Shown here: positions 16,590 through 37,968 of the stretch, in pieces | Position numbering within the stretch: position 1 is the stretch's first letter | How the letters are laid out: every line of letters starts with the position of its first letter | NCBI GenBank assembly: GCA_023266895.1 | Contig: JAHFOI010000005.1 | Span: 1 to 45,438, forward strand | DNA: 45,438 nt | From: Candidatus Woesearchaeota archaeon | GTDB lineage: Archaea; Nanobdellota; Nanobdellia; Woesearchaeales; ARS49 | Direction: 5' to 3' | The notes under the pieces: model-generated | Told to the model about the DNA's origin: nothing | Seen by the model: only the letters and a program-made list of their open reading frames with translations | Database searches by the model: none | Position numbers and translations under genes: made by a program

Positions 16590-16691
16590 TGAGCCCGGCC
16601 GGATTTGAACCGGCGACCAATGGTGCTCCTAGGAGCTGTTGGAAGCGCTGCCATATAAGACCATCGCTCCCCCAGGCTAAGCTACGGGCCC
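16590..16691 (-). tRNA. tRNA-Ile(UAU) with a 28-nt canonical intron
   Basis: A 102-nt gene, 74 nt after splicing. The acceptor GGGCCCG pairs with CGGGCTC (one G-U) and the discriminator is A. The anticodon stem ATGGT/ACCAT encloses CTTATA, the intron, then C. The intron (28 nt, at 37/38) forms an exact BHB: central helix CTTA/TAGG, bulges TA|T and AG|C, and an inner helix GG(c)AGC/GCTCC. Splicing gives the loop CTTATAC with anticodon UAU. The variable loop is short, which excludes Leu and Ser. A UAU tRNA reads AUA directly, whereas most archaea use a CAU tRNA modified by TiaS. The best TATA (16748-16755) lies about 60 nt upstream, implying a 5' leader. Confidence 0.9.
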
Positions 16692-19254: not shown

Positions 19255-19436
19255 GAATTTGCGCAACAACAGACCTGTTCTTAAACCTAGTTATACCACA
19301 ATCCACTGGACAAGTACTCGCGCAGGGCATTTAAACAAATGTTCAGGCAAGCCTAACTCAAACCCTCTGTCTCAACCTCATGTTCAAATCCCCTGCTACG
19401 AAAGAAACACATGAACGAAGTGAAACTGTACAATAT

Positions 19437-19481
19437 GCTCCCGCCGGCAAACTCAACTATGGTTTTGTAGCCAGCAGGAGC
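19437..19481 (-). pseudogene. tRNA-Glu-derived minihelix
   Basis: On the minus strand the segment begins GCTCCTGCTGG and ends CCGGCGGGAGC, which pair into an 11-bp helix (two G-U pairs) around a 23-nt loop. The first 7 nt equal the 5' acceptor strand of tRNA-Glu, and the last 11 plus AT equal its 3' end (13-nt identity). It lies 20 nt downstream of the tRNA-Glu 3' end. It is either a tRNA remnant that lost its middle or a deliberately kept acceptor-like hairpin. Confidence 0.5.
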
Positions 19482-19500
19482 TCGTTCGCACGGCTCACGA

Positions 19501-19604
19501 TGCTCCCGCCGGGATTCGAACCCGGGTCTCAGCCTATCCTTGAACTACTGTTGTCAGTAGCTCCCGAAAGGGCCGAATCCTTGGCCGGACTAGACTACAG
19601 GAGC
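19501..19604 (-). tRNA. tRNA-Glu(UUC) with a 29-nt canonical intron
   Basis: A 104-nt gene, 75 nt after splicing. The acceptor GCTCCTG pairs with CGGGAGC and the discriminator is A. The anticodon stem CGGCC/GGCTG encloses CTTTCG, intron, A. The intron at 37/38 has a textbook BHB: central helix CTTT/AAGG, bulges CG|G and AT|A, and a 9-bp inner stem capped by ACAA. The spliced anticodon is UUC. The T-arm is CCCGG-GTTCGAAT-CCCGG-like. A TATA (GATTTAAGAG on the minus strand, about 19628-19637) is centred 30 nt upstream. Confidence 0.95.
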
Positions 19605-19706
19605 GATGAGTTGTTTTTTTTGTTTGTGCTCTTAAATCTTAGTGTCGGTTGTGCCGAATCATCCGAAGGCGTAAGCCGAGGATGTGCAGGAACTGCAGTG
19701 ACTGCA

Positions 19707-19736
19707 CCTTGGCCGGACTAGACTACAGGAGCGATG
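19707..19736 (-). pseudogene. Promoter-bearing duplicate of the tRNA-Glu 5' third
   Basis: This 30-nt segment is identical to 19579-19608: 4 nt of 5' flank, the acceptor 5' strand and the D-arm of tRNA-Glu. After it the sequence diverges into its own hairpins on the minus strand: a GTGCAG/CTGCAC stem and a CATCC/GGATG stem with an inner GGC/GCC. A TATA-like CTTTAAAAACC (19756-19766) lies 30 nt upstream of the copied G1, the same spacing as at the real gene. It has no 3' acceptor strand. A transcribed tRNA-like RNA, a split-tRNA 5' half, or a dead duplicate are all possible. Confidence 0.5.
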
Positions 19737-19766
19737 CAGTCAGAATAACGTGCATGGTTTTTAAAG

Positions 19767-31826: not shown

Positions 31827-32279
31827 CTAAGCTTTTGTTAGCACAGTATTTGGATCCTTCCACAACAATCTACCTTGCGCAAATGCAGTGCGTTGATACT
31901 CACGCACACCAGCACGCTGTTCCACAAACTTCATGAAACACCAAAGCTTACGCATAAACTTGTTAACAGCTTCACGCTCTTGAACAAGTTCTGATTCTTT
32001 CTTGTACTGTAACAATACAATCAAATCAAGAATAGCTTCAACTTCACGAATGCTTCTATACGCGAACAATAAAAAATTCAAAAAACTACGATAGGTTCCG
32101 GCACCACTGCCTTCAGCAATATTCAATGGCAATCCAGTAACTGCACGACGCAATTGCGAAATAATGTTATTTGATTCATGAACAGGAATCTGCTCACAAA
32201 GTCTATACATCATAACAACAAGCTCTTTTGCAAGGGCATAAATTTCCAAGTCTTTGAATCTTTCGTTTATTGAAAACAT
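31827..32279 (-). CDS. Four-helix-bundle protein of the 23S rRNA intervening-sequence (S23) family
   Basis: A 150-residue helical protein. The signature FKDLEIYALAKELVVMMYRL, QLRRAVTGLPLNIAEGSG and FLNFLLFAYRSIREVEAIL matches the family first seen inside 23S intervening sequences of bacteria. Here it lies about 130 nt beyond the 23S 3' end, on the same strand. It may be read through from the rRNA operon. The pentameric family is thought to bind nucleic acid, but its function is not settled. Confidence 0.88.
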   Translation of the reverse strand: MFSINERFKDLEIYALAKELVVMMYRLCEQIPVHESNNIISQLRRAVTGLPLNIAEGSGAGTYRSFLNFLLFAYRSIREVEAILDLIVLLQYKKESELVQEREAVNKFMRKLWCFMKFVEQRAGVREYQRTAFAQGRLLWKDPNTVLTKA

Positions 32280-32384
32280 GAACTGCTCAAGATAATTCGC
32301 CTTAAGTAAGTTTACTAAAAAAATCCGGAAAGTTTACGAACTAGTTGATTGAATTTTCGGAAAATGTGAAACAAAAAATAAAAA
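32280..32384. other. Spacer between 23S and the S23-family gene; no 5S rRNA seen
   Basis: About 105 AT-rich nt. I looked for a 5S rRNA or a tRNA in the 3' trailer and see neither. A minus-strand promoter for the S23-family gene could lie here, but none is clear. Confidence 0.5.
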
Positions 32385-32401
32385 GGCCACACACAAACAA
32401 A
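32385..32401 (-). repeat. 23S processing stem, 3' arm
   Basis: This 17-nt GGCCACACACAAACAAA (plus strand) is the exact complement of 35439-35455. The two arms enclose the 23S gene and form the pre-23S processing stem. A second pairing, CTGGAAAG (32403-32410) with CTTTCCAG (35404-35411), continues it. Confidence 0.8.
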
Positions 32402-32404
32402 GCT

Positions 32405-35335
32405 GGAAAGATACGGACGTTGGTGACTGCATGCTGAACAACTCGTTACCTCGTTGCGTACACATCAGTTCCATCAAACAGGTCTTCTACCCATGTCCTA
32501 TGATGTCTCGTTTCACGGAGGGTTTCACGCTTAGATGCTTTCAGCGTTTATCCCAAACGGCGTAGCTGCCCGGCACAATGCCCTGTCGGACAACCGGTAC
32601 ACCAGAGGCCGCGAACGCCAGTTCCTCTCGTACTATGGCTTCCTTCCCCTTAGACATCATTGCATCTCCAGTAGATATTACACCAACTGCCTCACAGCGT
32701 TGTGAACCCAGCTAACGATCCCTTTTAATAGGTGAACCCCCTCACCCTTGCACGCTTCTGCACGCGCAGGATAGGAAGAGCCGACGGCGATGTAGCAAGC
32801 CGCGCCGTCGATGCGAACTCTCGGGCGCGACAACTCTGTTACCCCCAGAGTAACTTTTCGGTCATCCCCGGGCTCCATCAAGGAGCACACGGAGGTTCGC
32901 TAGGCCGCACTTTCGTGTCCCTTTTGAGTTATGTAAACAAAAGGGTCAGGCGAGCTTATGCCCTTGCACTCCACACCGGATTTCTGACCCGGTTGAGCTC
33001 ACCTTAGGGCCCCGCTGATATTCTTTTAGCGGGGTGCCACCCCAGCCGAACTGTCCGCAAGCAGGTGTCCCCTTACGGGTGAGCGACGCAAGTTTCGGGG
33101 TGTGGTGTTACATTGATGCCTCATGCAAAACCTGACGGTCTTGCACTCAAACGGCTCCCACATACACTATACAACAAAACCCGCGCCGCAGCTACAAGCT
33201 ACAGTAAAGTTTCATGGGGTCTTCACTTCCCACTGGAGCTCTCTGGACTTTGCACCAGAATGTTGTGTTCGGAGGATTCCGGTTGGGGACAGTGGGGACC
33301 TCATTGCGCCCTTCATGCACGTCGCCATTCAAACGACAAGGCATTTCGCTACCTTAAGAGAGTTATAGTTACTCCCGCCGTTTGACAGTCCTTCGCTCCC
33401 TTGAAAAGGAGGTTCGGATACTGTTACTGGGCAGACGTCACCGGCTGTACTAAGCCTTACGGCTTTGCAGCCAGTTGTGTTTTTGTTAAACAGTTGGGAC
33501 CCCCTAGTCAGTGCCCCCTGCACTCGCCACCTATACCGGCACGAATGCAGGGACCCCTTATGCCGAAGGCACGGGGCTAATATGCCGAGTTCCCTCAACC
33601 AGATAAGCTCCTTCACATCTCAGGCTTCTCACCTAGGGTACCAGTGCTGGTTCTTGGTACGGGCACATGAGATCTTTCTGTAAATGTTTTTCATGGGCTC
33701 CAGGCATCCAAGGAACCTGGTAAAACCAGGCTTGTCCGTGATTCAGCACATTCTCATCATAACGATACTCCTGTACTGTGTCACTATTCACACGCGCGAC
33801 GGCACGTGTCCTTGTAGCCAAAAGCGTCAATTTACAGCACGAGGTTTCCCTCACATACTCATGTGGTACCGGAATATTAACCGGTTTACCATTCCTCACA
33901 GACTCCTGTTAGGAGTTCAGTTAGGGCCGACTAACCCTTGCCTGATCGACATTGGCAAGGAACCCTTACCCTTTCGATGGCAGTGATTCTCACACTGCTA
34001 CGAGCCTACTACCGCCAGGATTTTCATTCCGACGTGGTCCCTCTTCCCTCTCAGGTTGAGTTCTGCCCACGCCAGGCGCCTGCCTACCACTTCCTTTTGG
34101 GAAGTCTTTGGTATCGGTCGCTGATTTAGCCCCGTCCATTTTGGGAACCTCTGTCCTCAACGGGTAAGCTGTTACGCACTTTTTAAAGGATGGCTGCTTC
34201 TAAGCCAACCTCCCCGCTGTCTCAAGACAAAGACTTCCTTCACCCTTTCACACTTAATCAGCTGTTAGGGACCTTAACCAAAGTCAGGGTTGTTCCCCTC
34301 TCGGACGCCAACCTTACGCCAGACGCCCCGTCTCTCAAGGTCTACGACGCTTAAACATTCGGAGTTGGACAGCAAGCCGAGCCCTTTCGGGCCCTTAACC
34401 CGCGATCCGTCGCTCTACAATTCAAGCAGTCTCGCTCGAGGCTAGACTACGGCCTACTTCGGCAGGAACCAGCTATCACCGGTCTCGATTGGCTTTTCAC
34501 CCCTAGTCCTAGGTCAGAAGAACGCGTGCACACAGCACCTCTTCAGACCTCCACGCGATTTTACTCGCGCTTCATCTTGCCCGGGACTAGATCGACCGGT
34601 TTCGGGTCGTCATCGAGTGACTCCTGGCGCTTTCACACCATGCCCCTCACCCTTGCGGGCTGCGGGCGTATTGCTTTCGCTTTGACTCCTCCAGTGTATG
34701 GATTAGTCTTGCCACTCGAAAACACTCCCTGGCACGTTATTCGAAACGCACGGTAGAACACCGAAGTGCACTACCTTTCTGAACTCAGAAGGTTTCAGGC
34801 CTTTTAACTCCCTGTCAAGGGTTCTTTTCAACGTTCCCTCACGGTACTATTTTCTATCGGACTCATAACGTGTTTAGGGTTGGAAGTTGATGCCTCCCAT
34901 GTTCCCGCTCCATATCCGGGGAGCAGTACTCGCGAACACAAGCTGTTACCTGCCCAGGTGCTGCTACGGGGCTATCACCCTTTATCGCACGCCTTTCCAG
35001 GCGACTTCGCATTACCAAGCGAGGCAATCCTCATTAAAGAGAGCCTGTGCCGACACTCCACATCGCCAACGCCTTTCAGCGCCAGCTTCGGTTTGCCCTA
35101 TGCGGTGTTCGGTCGCTCTTACTAACCGCATCTCAATTGATTTCTTTTCCTGCCGGTACTAAGACGTTTCAATTCCCGGCGTTTCCTGCCCTTTTGGGCC
35201 CAAGAGGAAGTCCTATTCGGAGATCCCTGGTTCAGCGCCTGCATACGGCTCGCCAGGGCATTTCGTTGTTAGCCACGTCCTTCATCGGCGTTATGAGCCA
35301 AGTCATCCACCTTCTGAGGTTTTGATGCTACGGAA
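32405..35335 (-). rRNA. 23S ribosomal RNA
   Basis: On the minus strand, archaeal large-subunit sequence runs from a 5' GGTGGATGACTTGG block (starting 35311) to the sarcin-ricin and 3' region near 32500. Length (about 2,930 nt) is normal. The conserved peptidyl-transferase and helix 69-like blocks match without long insertions, so I see no 23S intron. The 5' end is placed by homology to E. coli position 23 for GGTGGATG; both edges may be off by up to about 70 nt. Confidence 0.95.
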
Positions 35336-35438
35336 ATACACTCCTGCTCGTTACATTCATGTACTTCCGATCGCCTCACAAACCACTTTCATGATTTCTG
35401 AGACTTTCCAGAGTGTAATCTTATCTAGACTACAATTA

Positions 35439-35455
35439 TTTGTTTGTGTGTGGCC
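35439..35455 (-). repeat. 23S processing stem, 5' arm
   Basis: The partner of 32385-32401 (17 of 17 paired). Between this arm and the second pairing at 35404-35411 the 5' strand carries about 27 extra nt that can fold as a TGTAGTC/GATTACA hairpin, so the stem is interrupted on one side only. Confidence 0.75.
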
Positions 35456-35495
35456 TCATATAAACAGGAATTATGTTCATGTTTTCGGCGTTGCT

Positions 35496-35517
35496 ATCAT
35501 AAGCGGGTGCTTGTGAT
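35496..35517. other. Hairpin in the tRNA-Ala to 23S spacer
   Basis: ATCATAAGC (35496-35504) and GCTTGTGAT (35509-35517) pair over nine positions with one non-Watson-Crick pair and a 4-nt loop. It is probably a pre-rRNA folding element. The nearby 35460-35471 repeats the first 12 nt of the 16S gene (ATAAACAGGAAT on the plus strand). Confidence 0.4.
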
Positions 35518-35549
35518 AACCCAATCTCGCAATGATGCGTGTGATTGAA

Positions 35550-35716
35550 TGGACCCGTCGGGACTTTCGTTCATCCGTCGTCATTCGTCTATCGTCCGTC
35601 TTGTCGACGTACGACTCTGACGGGCGACTTCTGAAATTCGAACCCGAGGCCTCCCGCTTGTTTGGTCGATTGCTCGAACATGCAAAGCGGGCGCTCTACC
35701 GCTGGGCTACGGGCCC
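35550..35716 (-). tRNA. tRNA-Ala(UGC) with two introns, one in the T-loop
   Basis: A 167-nt gene in the 16S-23S spacer, 72 nt after splicing. Exon 1 is 35716-35681, intron 1 is 35680-35659 (22 nt, at 37/38), exon 2 is 35658-35637, intron 2 is 35636-35564 (73 nt, at 59/60) and exon 3 is 35563-35550. Intron 1 has a strict BHB: TTTG/CAAA, bulges CA|T and CA|A, inner hairpin with GCAA loop. Intron 2 also has a strict BHB, described in its own entry. Spliced: acceptor GGGCCCG/CGGGTCC, T-arm TCGGG-TTCGAAT-CCCGA, anticodon UGC, discriminator A. The G3:U70 pair, the identity mark of tRNA-Ala, appears only once intron 2 is removed. The D-stem has one C-A mismatch. Confidence 0.93.
35564..35636 (-). 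other. 73-nt T-loop intron of tRNA-Ala (position 59/60)
   Basis: The outer helix is the T-stem TCGGG/CCCGA. The central 4-bp helix is TTCG/CGAA, the 5' bulge AA|T and the 3' bulge AG|T, exactly the splicing-endonuclease substrate. The inner part continues TTCA/TGAA, a GAA/GGA internal loop, GTCG/CGAC and a CCGTC/GACGG stem with an inner GTCG/CGAC hairpin. Cutting after the second bulge base and joining gives the universal T-loop TTCGAAT. The intron has no ORF. Confidence 0.9.
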
Positions 35717-35750
35717 ATGTGATTATGAGAAGAGAAGCTGCTATACTCCA

Positions 35751-35817
35751 TGACAGATTTTTTTCTGTCATTTTGTAATAACGAATTCCACTTGCACAGA
35801 TGGGTGTCATTCGTTAT
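35751..35817. other. Two hairpins in the 16S to tRNA-Ala spacer
   Basis: TGACAGA-TTTTTT-TCTGTCA (35751-35770) is a perfect 7-bp hairpin. ATAACGAAT (35778-35786) pairs with ATTCGTTAT (35809-35817) around a 22-nt loop. Both are probably pre-rRNA processing or folding elements. Confidence 0.45.
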
Positions 35818-35865
35818 ATGAACAATGTGGTACGTTTGTGCTTTTATGAGCACAATAAAAAATAA

Positions 35866-37458
<1,593 letters not shown>

Positions 37459-37740
37459 CCGTGCAGAGGATAAATAGTTATTCAAGGTAGTATTCATCGC
37501 TGAACACTGCCCCGTGTAACCCAAATTCCACTTATAGATCGCAAAGTTGAAAATTTATTGTTCTTAGCAGCTTCTCTCATACTCAAGGAAGTCTTGAGCA
37601 TTCATGTGGACGACAGAGACACCTGCCTCTTATCGTTGTGTTCCTCAGTTATCCCGAGGCGAGAAAAACTGCCGGAGAATGTACCGGCTGTGGAGATGAT
37701 ATTCAAATAGGAAAGCAGGTTGTATTTAAAGCTTGCGGAA
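37459..37740 (-). promoter_or_regulatory. rRNA operon promoter and structured 16S leader
   Basis: The minus-strand TATA GCTTTAAATACAAC is at about 37724-37737, so transcription should begin near 37702 and the leader is about 240 nt. The leader holds dyads: GCCGG/CCGGC (about 37672-37690), CCTC/GAGG (near 37640) and CTCAAG-GAAGT-CTTGAG (about 37577-37594). I could not identify the 16S processing stem with confidence. Confidence 0.6.
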
Positions 37741-37968
37741 GGGGTTTTATTGACGGTAGAAAAGGTTTTACGGGTTGAAATAGCGACGAGAACTAGGTGT
37801 TTGATTGGCTTCGTGCAATTTTGTGAGGAAAAAAGTGTGGGTGAAGTCATGCGCTCCAAAAAAATGGATGAGTTTTTTTAAAATAAACTGGCAATGAAGA
37901 CTTGCAAAAAGGTATGTTAAAAATATTCAACCAAAAGCTATAAATACCTTCTTTCTTGAGGGATTGCT
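37741..37968. other. Divergent region between rRNA operon and zip gene
   Basis: Upstream rRNA promoter flank on the minus strand and, on the plus strand, a TATA-like AGCTATAAATACC at about 37937-37949 serving the ZIP gene. No gene is seen. Confidence 0.45.

Follow-up and report, generated by a model that had tools for sequence, protein, structure and literature searches.

Introns at position 59/60 of archaeal tRNA genes, and tRNA genes holding several introns, are known from the Thermoproteales and other lineages (Sugahara et al., reviewed in PMC4090602), and non-canonical tRNA introns are known in the Crenarchaeota and Nanoarchaeota (PMC4090602). Among the DPANN archaea, broad splicing is exemplified by ARMAN-2 (PMC6379350, PMC12397907). 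Introns with relaxed bulge-helix-bulge (BHB) motifs are reported to be removed efficiently only by splicing endonucleases (EndA) of the (alpha-beta)2 and epsilon2 types, the alpha4 enzymes being narrow in specificity, and strict BHBs are reported to be cut by narrow enzymes (PMC6379350).

Here we describe a tRNA-Ala(UGC) gene with two introns, one of them in the T-loop at 59/60, in the rRNA operon of a Woesearchaeota archaeon; the window referred to throughout is the whole stretch of DNA analysed, 45,438 nucleotides in length. The gene resembles the Thermoproteales-type cases in its insertion site, its BHB logic, and the presence of multiple introns in one tRNA gene, but differs in that the host is a DPANN archaeon of the Woesearchaeota type, the gene is the tRNA-Ala of the rRNA spacer, the intron extends to over half of the order sampled, and a single alpha-type EndA was detected rather than an (alpha-beta)2 enzyme. 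With ARMAN-2, which belongs to the Micrarchaeota, it shares a DPANN host and tRNA introns outside 37/38, although the epsilon2 EndA of ARMAN-2 is a three-unit protein of 390 aa with an ASL, whereas the one found here is an alpha-type protein of 174 aa without one. The 59/60 position itself is already known; what is of interest is how widely the intron occurs in the lineage, and that the enzyme detected is of the alpha type only. A literature search of limited coverage turned up no account of such introns in Woesearchaeota, the only relevant hit being a paper on group I introns (PMC6125680); tRNAscan-SE 2.0 derives its models for non-canonical introns from Crenarchaeota, Euryarchaeota and Thaumarchaeota, with Woesearchaeota unmentioned (PMC8450103).

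The tRNA-Ala(UGC) gene of the rRNA spacer

The features of the locus are listed in Table 1. Excision of 22 nt at 37/38 and 73 nt at 59/60 restores a standard tRNA as judged by ARAGORN, which names the spliced product tRNA-Ala(tgc). The product, GGGCCCGUAGCCCAGCGGUAGAGCGCCCGCUUUGCAAGCGGGAGGCCUCGGGUUCGAAUCCCGACGGGUCCA, is 72 nt long with all stems intact, and the UGC anticodon, the G3:U70 pair and A73 are all present. An initial annotation of this DNA had proposed a tRNA-Ala(UGC) with one canonical and one 59/60 intron, and all of its coordinates hold on the minus strand.

Table 1. Features of the spacer tRNA-Ala(UGC) locus, in window coordinates.
Feature	Coordinates	Strand	Basis
tRNA-Ala(UGC) gene, two introns, 16S-23S spacer (5' end at 35716, A73 at 35550)	35550..35716	-	ARAGORN on spliced 72-mer
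Exon 1: acceptor 5' strand, D-arm, anticodon stem 5' strand, UGC, to position 37	35681..35716	-	
Intron 1, 22 nt, canonical 37/38	35659..35680	-	Drawable strict BHB
Exon 2: position 38, anticodon stem 3' strand, variable loop, T-stem 5' strand, T-loop UUCGAA (54-59)	35637..35658	-	
Intron 2, 73 nt, T-loop 59/60	35564..35636	-	Strict BHB in MFE fold
BHB central helix, exon strand UUCG (positions 54-57)	35639..35642	-	
BHB central helix, intron strand CGAA	35566..35569	-	
Exon 3: U60, T-stem 3' strand CCCGA, acceptor 3' strand CGGGUCC (U70), A73	35550..35563	-	
16S rRNA gene, upstream of tRNA, same transcript direction	35868..37458	-	Rfam scan
23S rRNA gene, downstream of tRNA	32401..35336	-	Rfam scan

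Strong processing stems flank both rRNA genes. The pre-16S stem is formed by 35717-35867 with 37459-37760, and a 3-nt bulge in it (UCU) adjoining GAAG:CUUC is a possible EndA site; the 23S stem, formed by 35337-35549 with 32151-32400, contains a perfect 16-bp helix.

The two introns differ in how clearly they fold. In the unconstrained minimum free energy (MFE) fold of the precursor, intron 2 is a textbook hBHBh' structure, with the T-stem (UCGGG:CCCGA) as the outer helix, UUCG:CGAA as the central helix, UUCA:UGAA as the inner helix, and bulges of 3 nt each (5' AAU, 3' AGU). The precursor fold energy corresponds to a z of -3.98, none of 200 shuffles folding as well, and when the downstream DNA was shuffled 200,000 times, a 12-bp complement of the T-stem and acceptor arose within 230 nt in 176 cases. 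A strict BHB can also be drawn for intron 1 (UUUG:CAAA, bulges CAU and CAA), but in isolation it reaches -10.6 kcal/mol against -15.5 for the MFE alternative, and being 4.9 kcal/mol less stable it is only a possible structure for this intron. The earlier proposal that each intron lies at a strict BHB is thus borne out for intron 2, and is no more than compatible with the folding of intron 1. It had also been proposed that neither T-stem nor 3' acceptor strand exists before splicing; the strands are indeed separated in sequence, yet they are already paired as the outer helix of the precursor.

We consider it highly probable (roughly 0.93) that this gene is the cell's tRNA-Ala(UGC), that it is co-transcribed with the rRNA, and that its two BHB introns are cut by EndA and the exons joined by RtcB, cleavage, ligation and co-transcription being deduced from the sequence. 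The transcript of the rRNA operon would fold such that the T-loop UUCR (positions 54-57), which is almost invariant in tRNAs, provides the exon side of the BHB helix, with the YGAA close to the intron's 3' end as its partner. EndA would then cut both bulges, between AA and U and between AG and U, and RtcB, a gene for which is present in the genome, would ligate the exons. Because UUCR supplies half of the BHB, a spliceable intron would need only a YGAA-NN end; this would make 59/60 a recurrent site and leave the remaining intron sequence free to vary.

The gene is poorly visible to standard tools, as had been predicted: ARAGORN does not call it when run on the whole window, and its score with Rfam model RF00005 is 22.5 bits, under the gathering score of 29. 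The genome to which the window belongs (G000; 1.09 Mb in 52 contigs, rated 100% complete) yielded tRNA-Ala genes with anticodons CGC and GGC and this UGC gene only. A second intact tRNA-Ala(UGC) gene, which the initial annotation had set against its own reading, was looked for in G000 with RF00005 and with a model of 5' tRNA halves made from the tRNAs of G000 and two relatives, and none was found. It is therefore very improbable that we are dealing with a pseudogene that carries a decaying 73-nt insertion and whose work is done by another tRNA-Ala(UGC) gene, although the sub-threshold score would fit this, and with so many contigs, and isoacceptors missed at the first scan, a second copy could sit in a gap. 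All stems are intact after splicing, the gene is located in the rRNA operon, and the same site is occupied in relatives with the BHB pairing kept (see below).

Group I introns have catalytic cores of more than 200 nt, well beyond the size of segments of 22 and 73 nt, and 73 nt cannot hold an ORF. An Rfam scan of the window shows no group I intron, and no other copy of the 73-nt intron was found in G000. We therefore rejected the reading in which the insert is not a BHB intron but a mobile or self-splicing one (homing or group I-like), and assign that reading a probability close to nil even though Woesearchaeota rRNA genes do hold group I introns (PMC6125680); the boundaries also coincide exactly with the points at which EndA cuts a BHB.

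Other tRNA genes of the genome

The 59/60 introns of G000 are not limited to tRNA-Ala. A tRNA-Lys(UUU) gene (G000:C35:36578-36398, L240) that the first scan had missed was found with the 5'-half model, and has three BHB introns, of 18 nt in the D-loop, 39 nt at 37/38 and 49 nt at 59/60, the last with a UUCG:CGAA helix as in tRNA-Ala. Introns of this kind explain why standard tools take the tRNA-Ala(UGC) of the order to be absent or damaged and, in G000, do the same with at least tRNA-Lys(UUU). ARAGORN also gave wrong anticodons for several intron-bearing tRNAs, and these were re-read by eye. A tRNA with a 28-nt intron at window positions 16590-16691 (minus strand) is named Ser(tga) by ARAGORN, but reads as tRNA-Ile(UAU), a rare tRNA that has been reported from N. 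equitans and Korarchaeum.

Several further tRNA genes are unusual. Class II tRNA-like genes with a long variable arm and G73 are present at G000:C13 ~21230-21010 (L042), G000:C46:11594 (L242) and G000:C37:4926, and loci L279, L280 and L283 in relatives are of the same type; most have a T-loop intron. Their 7-nt anticodon loop reads CUGANNN, in which UGA is constant and shifted by one from its normal place, and no ordinary tRNA-Ser(UGA) was found. The tRNA-Glu genes with anticodons UUC and CUC (window 19400-19752; G000:C6:4600-5050, L241) each have a partial 5'-half duplicate about 100 nt upstream, and tRNA-Glu(UUC) has an additional 3' acceptor-like duplicate downstream. Two low-scoring degenerate tRNAs (G000:C12:19635-19717, L041; G000:C19:2456-2545, L039) are pseudogene-like or unusual: one is a His-like copy whose T-stem is poor, and the other has an apparent anticodon AUA and U56.

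The 59/60 intron across the order

A search with the 16S 3' end yielded rRNA spacers first from 26 members of the family and next from 288 of the order, to which further spacers were added. An intron at exactly 59/60 is present in 51 of the 89 readable spacer tRNA-Ala(UGC) loci and in 33 of the 48 families of the order, counts that are approximate because the parser required G3:U70, TTGCA and a limited length, and so restricted which loci were readable. Two loci from a pattern scan (L097 and L101) gave false T-arms in the automatic parse and were excluded.

The introns of these relatives range from 14 to 152 nt and have almost nothing in common except the YGAA-NN end; the UUCR:YGAA helix is kept despite the unrelated intron sequences. 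All four central pairs can be formed in 52 of 60 distinct introns, as compared to 2.7% of shuffled introns. Covariation is seen between position 57 and the intron base that faces it, G57 being matched with C in 16 of 21 cases and A57 in none of 39 (Fisher p ~1e-10, relatedness ignored); when corrected for the tree, the balance is 3.6 for and 0 against in 5 independent pairs, which is too few for significance. An inner helix of at least 3 bp in strict register is seen in only 23 of the 60. The 59/60 junction, which is set by the register of the BHB, is also fixed by a comparison within one genus: L053 has an intron of 152 nt, L055 has none, and the T-arm and acceptor exons of the two loci are identical, such that L055 constitutes an exact empty site.

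Plotted on the 16S tree, presence and absence of the intron require 6 changes, and the intron looks to be old and to have disappeared on several occasions, one of them in the sister group of G000. On this comparative evidence, the T-loop intron is a genuine and widespread archaeal splicing intron and not a one-off. We note that the spacer tRNA-Ala of relatives L079, L131 and L152 has an extra insertion in the D-loop, which brings the intron sites in this gene to at least three. The genome that holds L055 (G023) has two rRNA operons in one MAG, on contigs C19 (L050) and C46 (L055); the C19 operon is probably contamination, since its 16S lies outside the family and groups with another family in the 16S tree.

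A scan of the GTDB genome collection with an intron plus acceptor pattern returned 31 records. Those with group names in their titles are all Woesearchaeota, Nanoarchaeota or Nanoarchaeia, with the exception of Euryarchaeota archaeon SM23-78, in agreement with the DPANN-like host proposed at the outset. A few are titled only 'archaeon', and one record is a complete chromosome, that of archaeon GW2011_AR15. Four genomes from other orders of the same class also match the intron pattern.

The splicing endonuclease

One EndA gene was detected in G000, encoding an alpha-type protein of 174 aa with PF02778 and PF01974 domains. Its residues 3-174 align with M. jannaschii EndA with gaps of one residue, and the catalytic residues Y110, H120 and K151, as well as R144 and W171, do not vary among 16 members of the family. 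Every family member with an EndA match has a single such gene, and neither PF01974 (E up to 10) nor PF02778 reveals a second EndA-type gene in G000, be it a beta subunit or a fused three-unit form. By alignment, the protein lacks the 11-18-residue ASL and CSL loops that mark the crenarchaeal and ARMAN forms of the broad-specificity enzymes, and there is no insertion where S. tokodaii EndA has one. An alignment-based model of the protein (pLDDT 89.6) has its closest fold in 1A79 (TM 0.89/0.90), the M. jannaschii alpha4 EndA. Such alpha4 enzymes are homotetramers in which two arginines hold the bulge base, and we infer that the protein described here assembles as alpha4 too. It is like the M. 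jannaschii enzyme in length, domain order, catalytic triad and predicted fold, but has a Trp in place of Tyr in its C-terminal region, and its host has introns at non-canonical sites.

The initial annotation had held that introns of this kind require a splicing endonuclease of broad specificity, had inferred that this archaeon has one, and had suggested looking for an (alpha-beta)2 or epsilon2 type in the genome. This finds no support: the search returned only the alpha-type gene, and since the T-loop intron of the window has a strict BHB, of the kind cut by narrow enzymes, a broad enzyme is not required here. The relatives present a different situation. Many of their T-loop introns are relaxed, and narrow enzymes are reported to cut such BHBs poorly; L048 (G015) and L051 (G022) are relaxed introns in genomes with a single alpha gene. 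Either the enzyme is more tolerant than that of M. jannaschii, or a partner has been missed.

The latter explanation, in which the alpha protein is insufficient and an undetected beta-like partner forms an (alpha-beta)2 enzyme with it for non-canonical or relaxed sites, we regard as rather unlikely. The relaxed introns themselves speak for it, as does the invariant R144 and W171 combination, which resembles the Arg/Trp pair described in enzymes of the (alpha-beta)2 and epsilon2 types (PMC6379350, PMC12397907); in the catalytic subunit of N. equitans, W171 is matched in the alignment by a Trp close to the C-terminus. However, the profile searches yield one gene only, and the alpha protein used as a query reaches even the N. 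equitans beta subunit (3.5e-14). The lack of CSL and ASL and the fold match to 1A79 likewise count against a heteromeric enzyme.

We tentatively put forward, at somewhat less than even odds, the proposal that a single-gene alpha-type EndA without CSL or ASL removes T-loop introns across the lineage, relaxed BHBs included, with 59/60 preferred by virtue of the invariant UUCR; W171 may contribute to a greater tolerance of the enzyme. If true, the link between non-canonical introns and (alpha-beta)2 or epsilon2 enzymes would break. These archaea provide a natural setting in which to ask whether an alpha-type EndA that lacks the loops can serve non-canonical and relaxed sites, a task that present models give to enzymes of heteromeric or fused type. 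A common non-canonical tRNA intron can now be given for a large uncultured archaeal order, in its rRNA operon, and the many gains or losses among close relatives make it a good system for the study of tRNA intron turnover.
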